Positions 1,389 through 15,304 of a stretch of 22,528 nucleotides of DNA are shown piece by piece. Under the pieces are notes generated by a model. The model was not told the origin of the DNA. It saw nothing but the letters and a program-made list of their open reading frames with translations, and made no database searches. Location: the IMG/VR virus record IMGVR_UViG_3300032322_002814, positions 1-22,528 of that record. One strand, written 5' to 3'. The position numbers and the translations under genes are program-made. Origin of the DNA: a virus. The number at the start of each line of letters is the position of its first letter. Positions within the stretch are counted from its first letter, which is position 1.

Positions 1389-1973
1389 ATGAATTTTAGA
1401 GACTATCAACAACTTGCTTTAAAAACGGAAATGTTAACTTATGATGATGTTGCCAAAAGAATATTGATGAAAAATAGATTAAGGCTTTTACACGGCATTT
1501 ATATTAACTCCGAAATTAAAGAATTAGAAGATGCTATAAACAATGCCGATCAAATTAATATAATCGAAGAGGTCGGGGATTGTGCTTGGTATATTAACTT
1601 AATGAATGATTATTTTCAAGTTATTGAAAAAAAGACTATTAATCTTGATTATGTAATAGAAAAACCTGCTAATTTACAAGATTTGACTATTATAAAACAA
1701 AAAGCGGCTTTAATTGAAGACAACTTTAAAAAAGTAGTTTATTATAACAAATTTTTAGATATTGACAAAAATTTTATAGAGCCTTTGCAAGAGTTATATA
1801 ACGAATTTAAAAATCAATTTGGCGATATTTGGGAAGAGGCTTTGTCAAAAAACATTGAAAAATTAAAAAAAAGATATCCTGATAAATATAAAGATGACAA
1901 AGCAAATAATAGAGATTTGCAAGCTGAATATGAAGTTTTGAAACAATCATATTCTAAAAAATATGACAAATAA
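1389..1973 (+). CDS. MazG-like nucleotide pyrophosphohydrolase, 194 aa
   Basis: This is an all-alpha NTP pyrophosphohydrolase of the MazG / dUTPase-like superfamily, which hydrolyses (d)NTPs to the monophosphate and pyrophosphate. The metal-binding signature EXXE...EXXD is present as EIKE (42-45) and EVGD (61-64), inside helices typical of the fold. A phage-type C-terminus follows, with KLKKRYP (158-164) and NNRDL (173-177), a pairing I know from phage members of this family. In phages such enzymes adjust nucleotide pools, remove unusual nucleotides, or lower the host alarmone response. The nearby thymidylate synthase fits a pool-control role. Its 3' end overlaps the next small gene by 11 bases. 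Confidence 0.85.
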   Translation: MNFRDYQQLALKTEMLTYDDVAKRILMKNRLRLLHGIYINSEIKELEDAINNADQINIIEEVGDCAWYINLMNDYFQVIEKKTINLDYVIEKPANLQDLTIIKQKAALIEDNFKKVVYYNKFLDIDKNFIEPLQELYNEFKNQFGDIWEEALSKNIEKLKKRYPDKYKDDKANNRDLQAEYEVLKQSYSKKYDK

Positions 1974-2942: not shown

Positions 2943-3079
2943 AAAAAATTAATATTTTTTTTAATTACAACCTTAATGTTTTTCATATGCTAGGCATTAT
3001 GTTGGTTTTAGTGGCAATTGCATTAGTAATGCCATTTATTTTTATTTATCAATTAGTTAAAAAATGGGAAAGAGAATAG
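2939..3079 (+). CDS. very small single-pass membrane protein, 46 aa
   Basis: I choose the ATG at 2939, which overlaps the upstream TGA (ATGA), over a longer in-frame extension to 2894 that would overlap the neighbour by about 50 bases. The product has a Lys-rich start, one hydrophobic segment at about 17-39 (LGIMLVLVAIALVMPFIFIY) and a basic-acidic tail (KKWERE), so it probably spans the inner membrane once. Its 3' end overlaps the nuclease gene by 16 bases. The role is unknown. Confidence 0.55.
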   Translation: MKKINIFFNYNLNVFHMLGIMLVLVAIALVMPFIFIYQLVKKWERE

Positions 3080-3462
3080 GTATTGGTGAAGAGGGTTATT
3101 TGCATATTAATTTTAATACACAAATAACAGCTTTAATTTCATATAATCAATTAAAAATAAACCGTTATCATTATTCTACTTCTGGCGAAAACAGAAGTTT
3201 AACAACTGGTGCTTTGTTAAAAAGAAAAGGGGCAAAAAAAGGTTTGCCTGATTATGAATTTTGTTATAGAGGATCAATAGAAAATATAGATAATATTGAT
3301 TTTACTCTTTATATTGAATTTAAAGCTGGAAAGAATAAACAAACAAAAGAACAAAAAGATTTTGAAAATTTGTATTTAGATAGCAGAACTAAATTTTATT
3401 ATGTAGCCTACTCTGTTGAGGAAGCTATAAATATTCTAAAAAAACACAATTTAATTAAATAA
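3064..3462 (+). CDS. VRR-NUC domain nuclease (PD-(D/E)XK superfamily), 132 aa
   Basis: The catalytic signature of the VRR-NUC family is visible: GLPD (60-63), then IEFK with Glu85 and Lys87, then a Gln-rich helix (QTKEQKDF, 93-100). Together these form the PD...ExK...Q active site. Stand-alone VRR-NUC proteins of this size are common in phages and prophages. They are thought to be structure-selective DNA nucleases acting in recombination or DNA processing; the family was named for its presence in the Fanconi-associated nuclease FAN1. The upstream small membrane gene overlaps it by 16 bases. The N-terminal 55 residues are less conserved in appearance. Substrate preference cannot be told from sequence. 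Confidence 0.85.
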   Translation: MGKRIGIGEEGYLHINFNTQITALISYNQLKINRYHYSTSGENRSLTTGALLKRKGAKKGLPDYEFCYRGSIENIDNIDFTLYIEFKAGKNKQTKEQKDFENLYLDSRTKFYYVAYSVEEAINILKKHNLIK

Positions 3463-3467
3463 ACTAT

Positions 3468-4514
3468 ATGAATGCTTTAATAATCGGTTTAGGTTTAATT
3501 GGTGGATCGCTTGCCAAAGCCTTTAAAAAATATGAAATTGCAAAACACATTACTGTGTTTGATACCAACCAAAACTCTTGCAATTTAGCTTTACAGCAAC
3601 AAGTTGCTAACGAAATTTGTTATAATTTAAACAAAAAACAAATTGCTAAACAAAAAATTATTGTTATTGCTTGCCCCATATCAACTTATCTTGATATATT
3701 GCCAACAATTTTTAAATTCGCCAATAAAAATGCTTTAATTTTTGATGTTGGTTCGTTAAAAAATTTTGCCGAGCTTGATTTTACTAGTATAAAATTAAAT
3801 TTTGACCCTGCAATTTTTAATAATCTCCCTGCTAATTTTGTGCCCGCCCACCCCATTGCAGGATCGCACCTTACAGGCTATGAAAATTCTTGCGAAAATT
3901 TATTTGTCAATAAAAAATTTGTTATTTGCCCATTTAGATATGAAAAAAAAGAAGAAGAAAGAACTCATATAAAATGTGTTAATCAATTATATGATATTGT
4001 TATTAAAATTCAAGCTAAACATCTTTATTTAGATGCAAAAAAACATGATGAGATTTATACATTAATTTCGCATTTACCACAATATATATCTTTTGAATTA
4101 AAACATAAAATTAATTATAAAGAATTAAAATCTGATTTTTTTCAAACAGCTTTTCGTTTAGATAATTCAGATCAAAATTTATGGAAAGAAATATTTACAC
4201 TTAATTGCTATAATATAGTTAATTTATATAATAAATTATTGCTTGATTCATTATATAAATTAATTAATTGCCCTAATTTATATAAAAATGTAGAATATAA
4301 TGTTAATTATTTTAAAGAACCAGACTTAAAAGATATTAAGCATGATTTAAAAAATCTTGATAATCATAATATTTTATCAAGATTAATGATGGTAATTTGT
4401 TATTTAAATTTAGATAAAATTAAAGATTATAAACAGTATGCAGGTAAAGGTTTTGCCGATTTTACAAGTTTAATAAAAATAATACCACAAGAATTAAATA
4501 ATTTATTAAAATAA
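3468..4514 (+). CDS. tyrA: prephenate dehydrogenase / arogenate dehydrogenase (TyrA family), 348 aa
   Basis: The family catalyses the NAD(P)-dependent oxidative decarboxylation of prephenate to 4-hydroxyphenylpyruvate (or of arogenate to tyrosine), the tyrosine branch of aromatic synthesis. The Rossmann dinucleotide site is GLGLIGGS (7-14) with Asp32 at the end of strand 2, favouring NAD. DVGS is at 93-96 and the family motif AHPIAGSH at 127-134. HD (193-194) and SHLP (201-204) follow, then FRLDNSDQNLWKEIF around Arg230, which aligns with the conserved TRI...SDP.LW...F segment that carries the substrate-binding Arg. A C-terminal extension ends with AGKGFADFT (325-333), resembling a second copy of that region. 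It is full length and intact, and flanked by phage genes on the same strand with 5-base and 4-base gaps, so it is embedded in the phage block. Chorismate mutase is absent. Confidence 0.85.
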   Translation: MNALIIGLGLIGGSLAKAFKKYEIAKHITVFDTNQNSCNLALQQQVANEICYNLNKKQIAKQKIIVIACPISTYLDILPTIFKFANKNALIFDVGSLKNFAELDFTSIKLNFDPAIFNNLPANFVPAHPIAGSHLTGYENSCENLFVNKKFVICPFRYEKKEEERTHIKCVNQLYDIVIKIQAKHLYLDAKKHDEIYTLISHLPQYISFELKHKINYKELKSDFFQTAFRLDNSDQNLWKEIFTLNCYNIVNLYNKLLLDSLYKLINCPNLYKNVEYNVNYFKEPDLKDIKHDLKNLDNHNILSRLMMVICYLNLDKIKDYKQYAGKGFADFTSLIKIIPQELNNLLK

Positions 4515-4518
4515 CTAT

Positions 4519-4884
4519 ATGACAAAATTAGAACTAATGAAATACAAAGAAGATAAGCATTTTGATGATTTTGTTTGGTATTTATCTCGTAATTTACTTC
4601 TAAAAATTTTTAGAATACGTTGGTATAACGATGAACGTGATGAGAAACTTTTAAAAGACATAGATTTTATTTTGCACAAGACTAGCAAGGTTTGGGGTTT
4701 AAAATTTCCCATTACTAGATTGGAATTTGGGTTTGAAGAGTTTAATATAAAACCATTTTTAAGAGTTAATGTGGACAAAGTTTATTATTCAGAAATAATG
4801 AAGATAGTAGAGTTTTATAAACAACCAGAAAATCGTAAAAATGTGATGAATAACATTGACATAATTTTTGAGATAAAAACATAA
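4519..4884 (+). CDS. hypothetical protein, 121 aa
   Basis: I do not recognise this protein. It is charged and aromatic, with several Trp/Tyr/Arg-rich stretches (FRIRWYNDERDEKLL at about 31-45) and a beta-rich C-terminal half ending in IDIIFEIKT. It has no membrane segment, Cys cluster or obvious catalytic motif. The ATG follows AATAACTAT, nearly the same context as the TyrA gene just upstream (AATAAACTAT), which suggests common translation control. It lies between tyrA and thyX and could be co-expressed with both. Confidence 0.6.
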   Translation: MTKLELMKYKEDKHFDDFVWYLSRNLLLKIFRIRWYNDERDEKLLKDIDFILHKTSKVWGLKFPITRLEFGFEEFNIKPFLRVNVDKVYYSEIMKIVEFYKQPENRKNVMNNIDIIFEIKT

Positions 4885-4913: not shown

Positions 4914-5693
4914 ATGACAAAATACATCAAACTAATTGATTACATGGGAAGCGACCAAGCAATAGGAGATTCTGCTAGAATATCTTATGGCAAAGCTAAT
5001 CAAGGTAAAGAATGCGAAAATCTTATCAATTATTTAATGGAGCATGACCACTCTTCGCCGTTTGAGATGGCGGAACTTATTTTTGAGGTGAAAGCCCCTA
5101 TTTTTATTGCTAGACAATGGTTTCGCCACAGAACATTTTCTTACAACGAAATATCTTTACGATACACAGAGCCTGCCAAAGACTATTATATGCCAACAGA
5201 ATTAAGAATGCAATCTAAAAAAAATAAACAAGGCAGTGTAGCAGTTGAAAGAGATCATAAAATGCAATCTTTAATAGAAAAAAGATTACAAGAGCATTTT
5301 GAGAACTCTTTTGAATTATACGAGTTTTTAATTAATAATAATGTTTGTAAAGAACAAGCTAGAATGGTTTTGCCATTAAATTATAATACAACCTTCATTG
5401 TTAAAGGTAATTTGCGAAACTGGTTGCATTTTGTTAAGTTAAGAATGCACTCCACAGCACAAGCCGAAATTAGATGGTATGCCGACAAAATAGCCGATAT
5501 TATAGCCGACAAATTCCCTATCACTTGGCAAGCTTTCAAAAAGTTTAAAATAGATAGTATAACTTTAACAAAACAACAAATTGAGGTTGTTAATAGAGCT
5601 ATTAACAATAACTTTTTAACACTTGAAGAAAGCGGTTTAAGTGAAAGGCATTACCAACAAGTAAGGGAGTTGTTTTTAAATGAAAGAGTTTGA
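4914..5693 (+). CDS. thyX: flavin-dependent thymidylate synthase ThyX, 259 aa
   Basis: ThyX makes dTMP from dUMP using FAD, NADPH and methylene-tetrahydrofolate. The ThyX signature RHRX7S is exact: RHR at 71-73, TFSYNEI, Ser81, continuing LRY. The downstream segment NLRNWLHFVKLRM with AQAEIR is the usual dUMP/FAD-binding second half, and the length is typical of the family. ThyX is frequent in phages and gives an independent thymidine supply for DNA synthesis, which suits this AT-rich genome. The 3' end overlaps the methyltransferase gene by 14 bases, so the two are probably coupled. No active-site residue appears lost. Confidence 0.95.
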   Translation: MTKYIKLIDYMGSDQAIGDSARISYGKANQGKECENLINYLMEHDHSSPFEMAELIFEVKAPIFIARQWFRHRTFSYNEISLRYTEPAKDYYMPTELRMQSKKNKQGSVAVERDHKMQSLIEKRLQEHFENSFELYEFLINNNVCKEQARMVLPLNYNTTFIVKGNLRNWLHFVKLRMHSTAQAEIRWYADKIADIIADKFPITWQAFKKFKIDSITLTKQQIEVVNRAINNNFLTLEESGLSERHYQQVRELFLNERV

Positions 5694-6624
5694 TACAAGA
5701 GCAAAAGCTAAAAAATTAGCAGAATTTATAACACCAAGTAAATTGCGAGACTTTTTAGCATCAAAAATTAATGGCAATAACTTAACTATATTAGAGCCAG
5801 CAATAGGTAGCGGACAGTTGCTTTTTAATATAAAAGATAAGATTAGTATGATTGATGGTTATGATGTTAATGATAATGCAATTAGTATTGCAAAAGAAAA
5901 TTTTGCAGAAAAAATTAACATTTTTAATCAAGACTTTATTACTTGCAATATTAATAAACAATATGATATAGTAATTGCTAATTATCCATTTAGTTTAAAA
6001 CCAACGGAAGAGCAAAAACAATATATTTGCAATGATAAATTTTTAAGTAAGTTTTATGATAAAGAAGTTGAACCAAATATGCTTGGTAATTTTGCAAAAA
6101 AGATTAAAACAAGCAATATTACTGGTGTTTTAGATTTTGTATTTATTTTAAAATCTTTTAATCTTGCTAATGAAGGTTATTATTTTTGCTTTCCGGGAAT
6201 TGGATATAGGCAACAAGAAAAAGTATTTAGAGAATATCTAATAAAAAATAAATACATTAAAGAATATGGTATTATTAGCAATTGTCAATTCGACCACACA
6301 ACAATATCAATATTGTTTTTGCATTTAACAAAACAGCAAAATGAAACAACAAAATCTTTTAATCTTGACTTAAAAACAAATGAAGTAATTGAGGCGGTTG
6401 CTAATTTTGATAATGCAATTTTTAATATGCCACAAAAAAAAGTTGCAAAAGAAGTTATTGACCCTATTGAGCTAGAAAAACAAGCAAGAGAAAGTGTTTT
6501 AAATATAGTTAAGCATAGTTTAAATTGCAGTAAAATGTTATGTGAGCTTGATAAAAATTTGCGAGACAATTTGCCATTCGATGATTTTAAAAAATCATTA
6601 ATACAAACAATAGAAAATATATGA
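5680..6624 (+). CDS. N6-adenine-type DNA methyltransferase with variant NYPF motif, 314 aa
   Basis: The N-terminal half is a Rossmann SAM-binding methyltransferase. Motif I is EPAIGSGQL (39-47), motif II has the acidic Asp62 in YDVND, and motif IV is ANYPF (100-104) after YDIVI. The motif order (I before IV) and the ITPSKLRDFL start are those of type I-like (gamma class) adenine methyltransferases. The usual catalytic NPPY/F is NYPF here, with Tyr for the first Pro, so activity is less certain. The C-terminal third is helical and would hold target recognition, but no type I specificity subunit or nuclease lies beside it. Unusually for this window, a GGGAG sequence precedes the ATG. It overlaps thyX by 14 bases. 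Confidence 0.8.
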   Translation: MKEFDTRAKAKKLAEFITPSKLRDFLASKINGNNLTILEPAIGSGQLLFNIKDKISMIDGYDVNDNAISIAKENFAEKINIFNQDFITCNINKQYDIVIANYPFSLKPTEEQKQYICNDKFLSKFYDKEVEPNMLGNFAKKIKTSNITGVLDFVFILKSFNLANEGYYFCFPGIGYRQQEKVFREYLIKNKYIKEYGIISNCQFDHTTISILFLHLTKQQNETTKSFNLDLKTNEVIEAVANFDNAIFNMPQKKVAKEVIDPIELEKQARESVLNIVKHSLNCSKMLCELDKNLRDNLPFDDFKKSLIQTIENI

Positions 6625-12232: not shown

Positions 12233-15200
12233 TTAAATCCTGTAAGTTGTAAACGTATTTACCGCCGTTTTAATAGTTCTGAAACTTGCGCTGGTGTTGG
12301 CTGCAATAGTTGCATTGCCAACATAAGTATTACCAGTGTTGCCAGCCATTGTTATGGCGAAACCTGCCAAGTTAACCACTGACCATGTGAAACTTCGGTT
12401 GGTTTCTAGTGCCGATGATAAAATGCCGGCATCTACTGATGTTCCTGTTGGTAGTGTGAACGTTATTGCCGCTGTTGGCGTTGATTGAATAACCAGCGTT
12501 AATAGCTGAGCAATCGTTAAAGTGCTTGTGGTGTTAAGAGTGGTTATTGCACTAGCACCTTGATAACTTACGCCATTCACGCTTAGGCTTCCTGCAAAAT
12601 TCCCTACACCATTAACACTCAATTTTGAAGTTGTATTTGAAGGGTTGCCAATTAGAAAATTACCATTCGAATCAATAATGAGCCTACCGCCCACTACACC
12701 TGGCGCATCAAACTGCACAACACCGGGGGCTAATGAAAGAACAGTATTTGCACCATTGTCAAGACCTCCACCAATTCGCACTTTTCCGGCACCAAAATAT
12801 GCCGTGGTTCCGCCTAAAAAATCACCAGTCGAGAAACTGCCTGTGAGTGTTAAATTTCCACTAACGGTTCCACCAGTCAGCGGTAGTTTTGTTGAGTCTG
12901 CAACAGTTATATTTGCTGTGCCGTTAAAAGGCACTCCATTGATTGTTCTAGCCGTTTGCAATGCAGTAGCAGTAGCAGAATTGCCACTTAAATTTGCCGT
13001 TATATTGCCTGCACTAAAATTGCCACTCGCATCTCTTGATACAATTGCATTAGAAGTATTAGTATTTGTTGCAGTTGTTGCGGAATTAGCAACTTTGCCA
13101 GCAGTTGATATTGTATTTAATTTAGTGTCGGCAATAGAGCCAGCAAGCATAGTATTAGATACTGTGCCAGTATCACCAGTTGTAATTAAAGTTCCATTAA
13201 CATTAGGTAAAGTATAAGTTCTTGTTGTTGCGGTCGTAATACTTGCCGCATCAAAAGTTGCTTTTTTTGTTGTGTCAATGGAATTAATTATAAATGTTGT
13301 GCTGTCGCTTAAACTTTTATTTGTTAATGTTTGTGTGTCTGTTAAAGTAACCCCATCAGTTATGCCATAACCAGAGATTGTCGTTGGTTTGCTTGTTATA
13401 CTAGAAAAAGCAGGAGTTATTGTTGTTGCCGCTCCTACTGATGTTAATCTGCCTTTACTATCTACTGTAAATGTTCTGATTACTGTTGCGCTTTGATATG
13501 TGCCAGCAGTCACCCCACTATTAGCTAATGTTGTTGTTATTGCAGTTGTGCCAGTTCCTGATATATCGCCACTTAAAGTAATTGATTGATTTGCTGTTAA
13601 ATATGTGTTATTATCATAACTAATAGTTGTGCCACTTGCCTTTACAAAACCAGTGCCATTTAGTTGAGGTTGACCGCCAAGACCTGCGAGAGTATAATTA
13701 GGGATGTTAAGTGTGTTGCTTGCAAAAGTAGATGCCCCACTACTGCCAGTTGTTGTTAAAGTGATAGCATTTTGTTTATTATTAAATGTAGACCAGTCGG
13801 TAGATGATAAAAAGCCATTCGTTGTTGAATTTGCTTGGCTAATTGATATTGTATTAGTTGCTCTTGATAAAGGAGTAGAAAAAGTTAAAACATTTTCTTT
13901 GTTGTTAAAAGTAGACCAATCAGTAGATGATAAAGCACCTCTATTTGTTGCCGAAGCAGTAGGTAAATTAAAAGTATGTGTTGATGTTGATGATGATATA
14001 TTAAAATTAGTTCCTGTTGTGCCAATTGCAAATGTTTGAGTTAAAGCGGTTAAACCATTTAATGAAGTTATGCCAGTGTCAGTATCGCTATTATTGACCC
14101 AGTTTGTGCCGTTATATTTTAATACTTGACCGCTTGTTGGAGTTGTGATAACTACATCTCCAAGTAAATTTAAATTATAATCACCTTTAATAGCAACGAC
14201 TGCCCCAGTCCTGCCAAAAACACTTGATACACTAGTTGTTAAAGCACTAATATTGCCATTTAATTTTTGTATAGCACTTAATATTGTATCGGTTGCACTT
14301 ATAGTGCCAGCACCACTAACATAACCAGTTAAAAGCGAAGATATCGCTCTTGCATTTGTATAATATAAATTAGTGCCTTCACTAATATTTGTTGTTGTGG
14401 CACTTAAATAACTAAAACCACCAGTCCCATTGTTATATAATAAACCAGTAGAATTAGCCAAAGCACCTATATTTGTTAAATTAGTATTTAATGGTTGTTT
14501 AGTGCTATCGGCAATAGTTATATTTGCAGTGCCATCAAAAGACACTCCATTTATTAATCTTGCATTTTGTAAAGCCGTGGCAGTAGCAGAATTACCAAGA
14601 CCATAATTAGGCACTGCAATTACACCAGTTAAAGCATCATAAGTAGCAACTCCACTACTGCCAATTGAATTGACACTAATTGAATTTCTTGCTCTTGTTT
14701 GTGTAAAATATTGATTTGTGCCCTCTATAATATCGTCGGTTGTAGCATCGGCACCAGCAGTAATTAAGCCTTTGCTATCATAGGTTATTTTTGTTTTTGT
14801 GGCACCAGTGATTGCATTATTTTTAAAAGTATATCTATTGTCTAAATTAATACTAGAAAAACTTGTAATATGCCCAAAATCATCTAAATTCGCAGATTGT
14901 ATAACATTGCCATCAGTATTGACAATGTTAGCTTGTGTTGAAGTATCGGCATGTGAAATTGTGCGGTTTGCAGATAAATCACCACCACCAGCTAAACCAT
15001 TACCAGTATCTATTGTTATTGTTTTATCAGCTTTTGCATCTAATGAAGTCATCCATTTCCAATTTGTGCCATCACTTATATATAAACCTGCTTGTTTTGT
15101 AATAATGCCTAAAAAAGTGGTAGCATATCTAACAAGCCATATTTCGTTATTATGTGTTGATGCAGTAGGTAAGTCAGCAAAATAATCCACCTCTCCTTTT

Positions 15201-15304
15201 ATTGAAGAAATAAGATTAACTTCATCTTTTACCATTTTTTTTATTTCATCATTAAGATCTCGTCTTGTTAAATATTTATTTTCAAAATAACCTTGTGTTG
15301 TCAT
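12233..15304 (-). CDS. large tail fibre protein, 1023 aa
   Basis: This is a long, Thr/Ser/Asn/Gly-rich, repetitive protein that would form a trimeric beta-structured fibre. An N-terminal part (about 1-45) probably attaches it to the baseplate. YDSKGLITAGADATTDD, two copies of SSTDWSTFNNK (about 457 and 498), DTQTLTNKSL (about 655) and repeated SGNSATATALQ.AR.INGV.F.GTANIT units are familiar phage-fibre motifs. The last 90 residues (TLPTGTSVDAGI to the end at TTYRI) match a C-terminal beta domain shared by many phage structural proteins (NTGNTYVGNATIAANTSASFR). No collagen-like repeat or chaperone domain is seen. The final 255 residues are encoded by clearly GC-richer DNA than the rest. It overlaps the upstream gene by ATGA and is probably the main receptor-binding protein. 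Confidence 0.9.
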   Translation of the reverse strand: MTTQGYFENKYLTRRDLNDEIKKMVKDEVNLISSIKGEVDYFADLPTASTHNNEIWLVRYATTFLGIITKQAGLYISDGTNWKWMTSLDAKADKTITIDTGNGLAGGGDLSANRTISHADTSTQANIVNTDGNVIQSANLDDFGHITSFSSINLDNRYTFKNNAITGATKTKITYDSKGLITAGADATTDDIIEGTNQYFTQTRARNSISVNSIGSSGVATYDALTGVIAVPNYGLGNSATATALQNARLINGVSFDGTANITIADSTKQPLNTNLTNIGALANSTGLLYNNGTGGFSYLSATTTNISEGTNLYYTNARAISSLLTGYVSGAGTISATDTILSAIQKLNGNISALTTSVSSVFGRTGAVVAIKGDYNLNLLGDVVITTPTSGQVLKYNGTNWVNNSDTDTGITSLNGLTALTQTFAIGTTGTNFNISSSTSTHTFNLPTASATNRGALSSTDWSTFNNKENVLTFSTPLSRATNTISISQANSTTNGFLSSTDWSTFNNKQNAITLTTTGSSGASTFASNTLNIPNYTLAGLGGQPQLNGTGFVKASGTTISYDNNTYLTANQSITLSGDISGTGTTAITTTLANSGVTAGTYQSATVIRTFTVDSKGRLTSVGAATTITPAFSSITSKPTTISGYGITDGVTLTDTQTLTNKSLSDSTTFIINSIDTTKKATFDAASITTATTRTYTLPNVNGTLITTGDTGTVSNTMLAGSIADTKLNTISTAGKVANSATTATNTNTSNAIVSRDASGNFSAGNITANLSGNSATATALQTARTINGVPFNGTANITVADSTKLPLTGGTVSGNLTLTGSFSTGDFLGGTTAYFGAGKVRIGGGLDNGANTVLSLAPGVVQFDAPGVVGGRLIIDSNGNFLIGNPSNTTSKLSVNGVGNFAGSLSVNGVSYQGASAITTLNTTSTLTIAQLLTLVIQSTPTAAITFTLPTGTSVDAGILSSALETNRSFTWSVVNLAGFAITMAGNTGNTYVGNATIAANTSASFRTIKTAVNTFTTYRI

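Follow-up and report, generated by a model that had tools for sequence, protein, structure and literature searches.

TyrA-family dehydrogenases catalyze an oxidative decarboxylation, converting prephenate to 4-hydroxyphenylpyruvate or arogenate to tyrosine. Metabolic genes carried by viruses are already known as such, and DRAM-v flagged prephenate dehydrogenases (EC 1.3.1.12) as auxiliary metabolic genes (AMGs) in human gut phages (PMC7498326); no other pairing of prephenate dehydrogenase with AMGs was found in the literature searched. The gut phage AMGs were called by automated annotation, whereas the phage described here has probable Rickettsiales hosts, and the origin of the gene, its slot in the genome and the host pathway were traced. 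Phage tyrA is a rare and unusually well traced case. Here we present the features of this gene and of its surroundings, which make it probable that tyrA is a phage-borne AMG encoding a functional TyrA from a Rickettsiales host, and that its product would divert prephenate to 4-hydroxyphenylpyruvate or tyrosine.

The stretch of DNA analyzed (the window) is a complete viral record of 22,528 bp. In its right half are baseplate and tail genes, with a baseplate hub 78-97% identical to that of many IMG/VR contigs, and in its left half short early genes form an array (MazG, nuclease, TyrA, a 121-aa ORF, ThyX and two DNA methyltransferases). The gap between tyrA and its upstream neighbor is 5 bp, that to its downstream neighbor 4 bp. 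The features of the early array are:

1389-1973, plus strand: MazG-like pyrophosphohydrolase (PF03819; phrog_229)
3064-3462, plus strand: phage nuclease (PD-(D/E)XK / resolvase-like), left border of the variable slot (phrog_5702 Holliday junction resolvase, 3e-9; phrog_824, 2.6e-13; 91% nucleotide identity in contig L052)
3468-4514, plus strand: tyrA, prephenate/arogenate (TyrA-family) dehydrogenase (Pfam PDH_N/PDH_C, 2g5c match, invariant residues)
4519-4884, plus strand: 121-aa ORF, second gene of the variable slot (no family match)
4914-5693, plus strand: thyX, FAD-dependent thymidylate synthase, right border of the slot (TIGR02170, 7e-58; phrog_85; 76% amino acid identity in L052)
5680-6624, plus strand: DNA methyltransferase of phage type (phrog_6380, 7e-28; 94% nucleotide identity in L052)

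The initial annotation placed tyrA between a VRR-NUC nuclease and a ThyX-linked block. The upstream gene has no Pfam match at 1e-3 and is a nuclease by its matches to PHROG endonuclease and Holliday junction resolvase families; ThyX is present downstream, with the 121-aa ORF as the direct 3' neighbor of tyrA. The claim that tyrA is phage-borne rather than part of a host flank holds, as the record is viral throughout, the genes flanking tyrA recur in the same order on another phage contig, the tail genes are 78-97% identical to those of IMG/VR phages and the base composition is phage-like. The host-derived gene has viral genes on both sides. The 10-mer AACTATATGA brackets tyrA exactly (3462-3471 and 4513-4522); it is present in related phages too and may represent a translation-start context, and no special role was assigned to it.

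The ORF at 3468-4514 starts with ATG, encodes 348 aa and is intact and full-length, as first annotated. The chance of 348 stop-free codons at 24% GC is about 3e-15 under a base-composition model, so the open frame does not reflect chance. In the Pfam profile search both the nucleotide-binding domain PF02153 PDH_N (8.9e-22, 77.7 bits, cut-off 26.5) and the dimerization domain PF20463 PDH_C (7.1e-9, 36.4 bits, cut-off 22) scored above their gathering cut-offs; many NCBIfam TyrA models match, all under their equivalog cut-offs. The closest PDB relative is the prephenate dehydrogenase of Aquifex aeolicus (2g5c, E 6.8e-22; 3ggg, also about 7e-22). An AlphaFold model built from three sequences was poor (mean pLDDT 41).

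In an alignment of 21 sequences, G7, G9, G12, S96, H128, H193, D194, S201, H202, P204, Q205, R230, S234 and W239 are invariant in phage TyrA and 20 Rickettsiales homologues. The catalytic Ser (S96), the His of HPIAG (H128), the His-Asp pair (H193-D194) and the substrate-binding Arg (R230) have counterparts in the enzyme structures from Haemophilus and Aquifex, and the motifs reported initially (GLGLIGGS, D32, H128PIAGSH, H193D194, S201HLP204, R230 and W239) are all present. A prephenate or arogenate dehydrogenase activity is predicted from these residues. With the Aquifex enzyme (2g5c, 3ggg/3ggo/3ggp) the phage protein shares the domain order, the catalytic Ser, His and Arg and the lack of an Arg at the NADP-binding position; it differs in having Gln205 in place of His217 and an extra conserved region at the C-terminus. 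The residues T33, N34 and S37 following D32 resemble I63, N64 and S67 of the NAD-preferring Aquifex enzyme, and the Arg of NADP enzymes is absent; NAD+ is the likely cofactor.

Aquifex His217 is needed for feedback inhibition by tyrosine, and Gln or Val at this position is noted only in some arogenate-type enzymes (PMC2954222). Phage TyrA, with Gln205, may escape inhibition by tyrosine. Because Gln or Val has been seen at the His217 position in some arogenate-type enzymes, the substrate may be either prephenate or arogenate, and the feedback insensitivity is a prediction. The same Gln is present in every Rickettsiales homologue whose motif can be read, and a phage-specific meaning of Gln205 was dropped for this reason. 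In the alignment phage TyrA is about 20-25 C-terminal residues shorter than the nearest host homologues. Near the C-terminus (window 4437-4469, residues 324-334) a YAGxGFxDFTS motif is kept in phage and Rickettsiales TyrA; it is similar to the stretch GGGFKDFTR in canonical TyrA, which ends in the substrate Arg, and may be a part of the dimerization domain that was duplicated or rearranged.

A TyrA tree with host-range candidates, proposed as a check in the initial annotation, was built from 46 rows. The phage protein is nested deep within the Rickettsiales tyrA clade, as sister to TyrA of the two Rickettsiales MAGs CE-Jul18-19 and ME-09jul19-104 (L002 and L003) at 100/100, and topologies placing it outside this clade were rejected (p-AU 0.003 and 0.0004). 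Amino acid identity to L002 and L003 is 51-53% overall and about 60% over residues 1-210, with a loop insertion after DxGSxK, the SHLPQ motif and the C-terminal YAGKGFADFTS in common. Unlike the phage gene, the host genes are chromosomal beside ispG, encode proteins 24-41 aa longer and have a higher GC content. The gene order in L002 and L003 is secF, PBP1a, tyrA, ispG, and ispG follows tyrA in most other host loci examined. From the nesting in the tree and this conserved chromosomal synteny we infer that the transfer went from host to phage. It is probably old, because the GC3 of phage tyrA (0.135) equals that of its phage neighbors (nuclease 0.128, first methyltransferase 0.149) and not that of host tyrA (0.25). 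Compared with the two host genes, phage tyrA has a dN/dS of about 0.38 (N-terminal domain 0.31-0.33, C-terminal part about 0.5), as expected under purifying selection, with a greater divergence in the C-terminal part (dN 0.44-0.52 vs 0.30). Phage-like composition and dN/dS together speak for an old and maintained acquisition rather than a chimera.

In the tyrA of L002 and L003 themselves (5962 to about 7130) dN is 0.03 in the N-terminal domain and 0.18 in the C-terminal part, together with a length change; by these values the C-terminal domain is fast-evolving. L003 (CAMAWV010000022.1) is labelled Rickettsia typhi. Its 1.3-Mb MAG encodes chorismate synthase and chorismate mutase besides tyrA and clusters with a MAG named Rickettsiales bacterium, and the species label looks wrong.

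The related viral contig L052 shares the nuclease (91% nucleotide identity), ThyX (79%) and the methyltransferase (94%) with the window. Nuclease and ThyX are separated by 1,451 bp in the window and by 860 bp in L052, where the interval holds two small ORFs unrelated to those of the window, and the slot aligns at 38% identity vs 37-40% for shuffled sequence. In the third relative, L058, a different ORF of 215 aa follows the nuclease. To judge from the unrelated ORFs between the same flanks in L052, tyrA is swappable cargo. TyrA was found in none of 21 related viral records, most of them fragments not covering the slot. ThyX (4914-5693) is 76% identical in amino acids and 79% in nucleotides to that of L052, with surrounding genes at 89-91% amino acid identity, which suggests that thyX itself recombines in the early array.

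Freshwater relatives of Rickettsia are most likely the hosts of this phage. A 17.8-kb contig in the Rickettsiales MAG G250 matches 5.4 kb of the phage tail region at 80.6% nucleotide identity. G250 also carries tyrA, its TyrA being the next branch out from the phage and L002/L003 (81/91). More distant tail homologues (about 50%) occur in G281 and a methyltransferase at 55% in G083. The G250 contig has phage-like genes only, and the host link thus rests on wholly phage contigs binned into MAGs, where mis-binning is possible. TyrA matches were found in 107 of 344 genomes of the order Rickettsiales. The 31 genomes with the best matches have chorismate synthase (aroC) in 27, prephenate dehydratase in 29 and chorismate mutase in 28 cases; in seven genomes with no TyrA match the respective numbers are two, zero and zero. 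As aroC, chorismate mutase and prephenate dehydratase occur in nearly all tyrA-bearing genomes, hosts of the L002/L003-type lineage can make prephenate, in agreement with the earlier expectation that the host supplies it. Compensation of a host pathway gap, also suggested earlier, is less likely, since the nearest hosts have their own tyrA.

TyrA had been described as no common AMG, and the databases agree: PHROGs gave zero matches for the phage protein, the gut phages are the precedent, and scans of IMG/VR for sequence patterns, based on this protein alone and on two alignments, yielded no second viral TyrA of the same kind. These scans depend on short conserved peptides and could miss other TyrA types. 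None of the TyrA matches in the phage collection reached 30% identity. Two phage-labelled records (L109, CAKLQH020000004.1; L108, MT835496.1) were rejected as viral TyrA because of their bacterial chromosome neighborhoods; in one of them the neighborhood is pheA-aroA-pepD of Acinetobacter, and in the other tyrA lies between the genes for a ParA-type ATPase and a cytidylate kinase/GTPase.

The sequence data are consistent with the following course. The phage would long ago have acquired the gene from a host chromosome of the Rickettsiales lineage CE-Jul18-19 / ME-09jul19-104, with insertion between nuclease and thyX, in a variable slot of the early-gene array. During infection phage TyrA would oxidatively decarboxylate host-made prephenate (or arogenate) to 4-hydroxyphenylpyruvate (or tyrosine), likely with NAD+, and the branch point would be pulled toward tyrosine while phage proteins are synthesized. 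Gln205, a residue shared with the host enzymes, may leave the phage enzyme uninhibited by tyrosine. The need for a phage tyrA is not obvious, the predicted host having its own. That an early, tyrosine-insensitive phage TyrA overrides host feedback and redirects prephenate from phenylalanine to tyrosine in aromatic-prototrophic Rickettsiales is a tentative and rather doubtful extension; no demonstrated phage example of such a branch-point takeover was found.

Three other explanations were weighed. A metagenome assembly chimera or host contamination is highly improbable. Only one record carries the gene and the inspected phage-labelled TyrA records are host DNA, but both flanks recur in unchanged order on another phage contig, with the matches ending at the gene borders, the base composition of tyrA equals that of its phage neighbors, and there is no ispG downstream as in most host loci examined. 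Repurposing of a TyrA-fold dehydrogenase by the phage, with a change of substrate or role, would fit the diverged C-terminal domain and the shorter tail; the invariance of Ser96, His128, His193/Asp194, Ser201/His202, Arg230 and Trp239 across the 20 Rickettsiales homologues makes it quite improbable.

The gene could also be a real phage-borne passenger, expressed or not, brought in by transduction-like hitchhiking or as lysogenic cargo, of no infection-specific benefit and only one of many genes gained and lost at this slot. The slot is hypervariable, with two unrelated ORFs in L052 and the 215-aa ORF in L058, and tyrA is kept in none of the 21 related records, mostly fragments that do not cover the slot. 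Against this, the long residence indicated by phage composition, the dN/dS of about 0.38, part of which reflects constraint on host branches, and the retention of all invariant residues point to a maintained function, and we consider a mere passenger unlikely. A functional AMG of Rickettsiales origin is the preferred reading, by which phage tyrA could raise the tyrosine supply during infection. It would add control of an amino acid branch point to the metabolic steps that may be open to manipulation by phages of reduced, host-associated alphaproteobacteria, and provides a well-anchored phage-to-host link for Rickettsiales. The nuclease-thyX slot is a defined place for seeking further host-derived cargo.

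In the right half of the window, positions 12233-15304 hold a repetitive tail-fibre-like gene of 1,023 aa. Its relatives match in parts only (residues 1-164 or 468-780), and the gene looks mosaic, as expected of a host-range gene.
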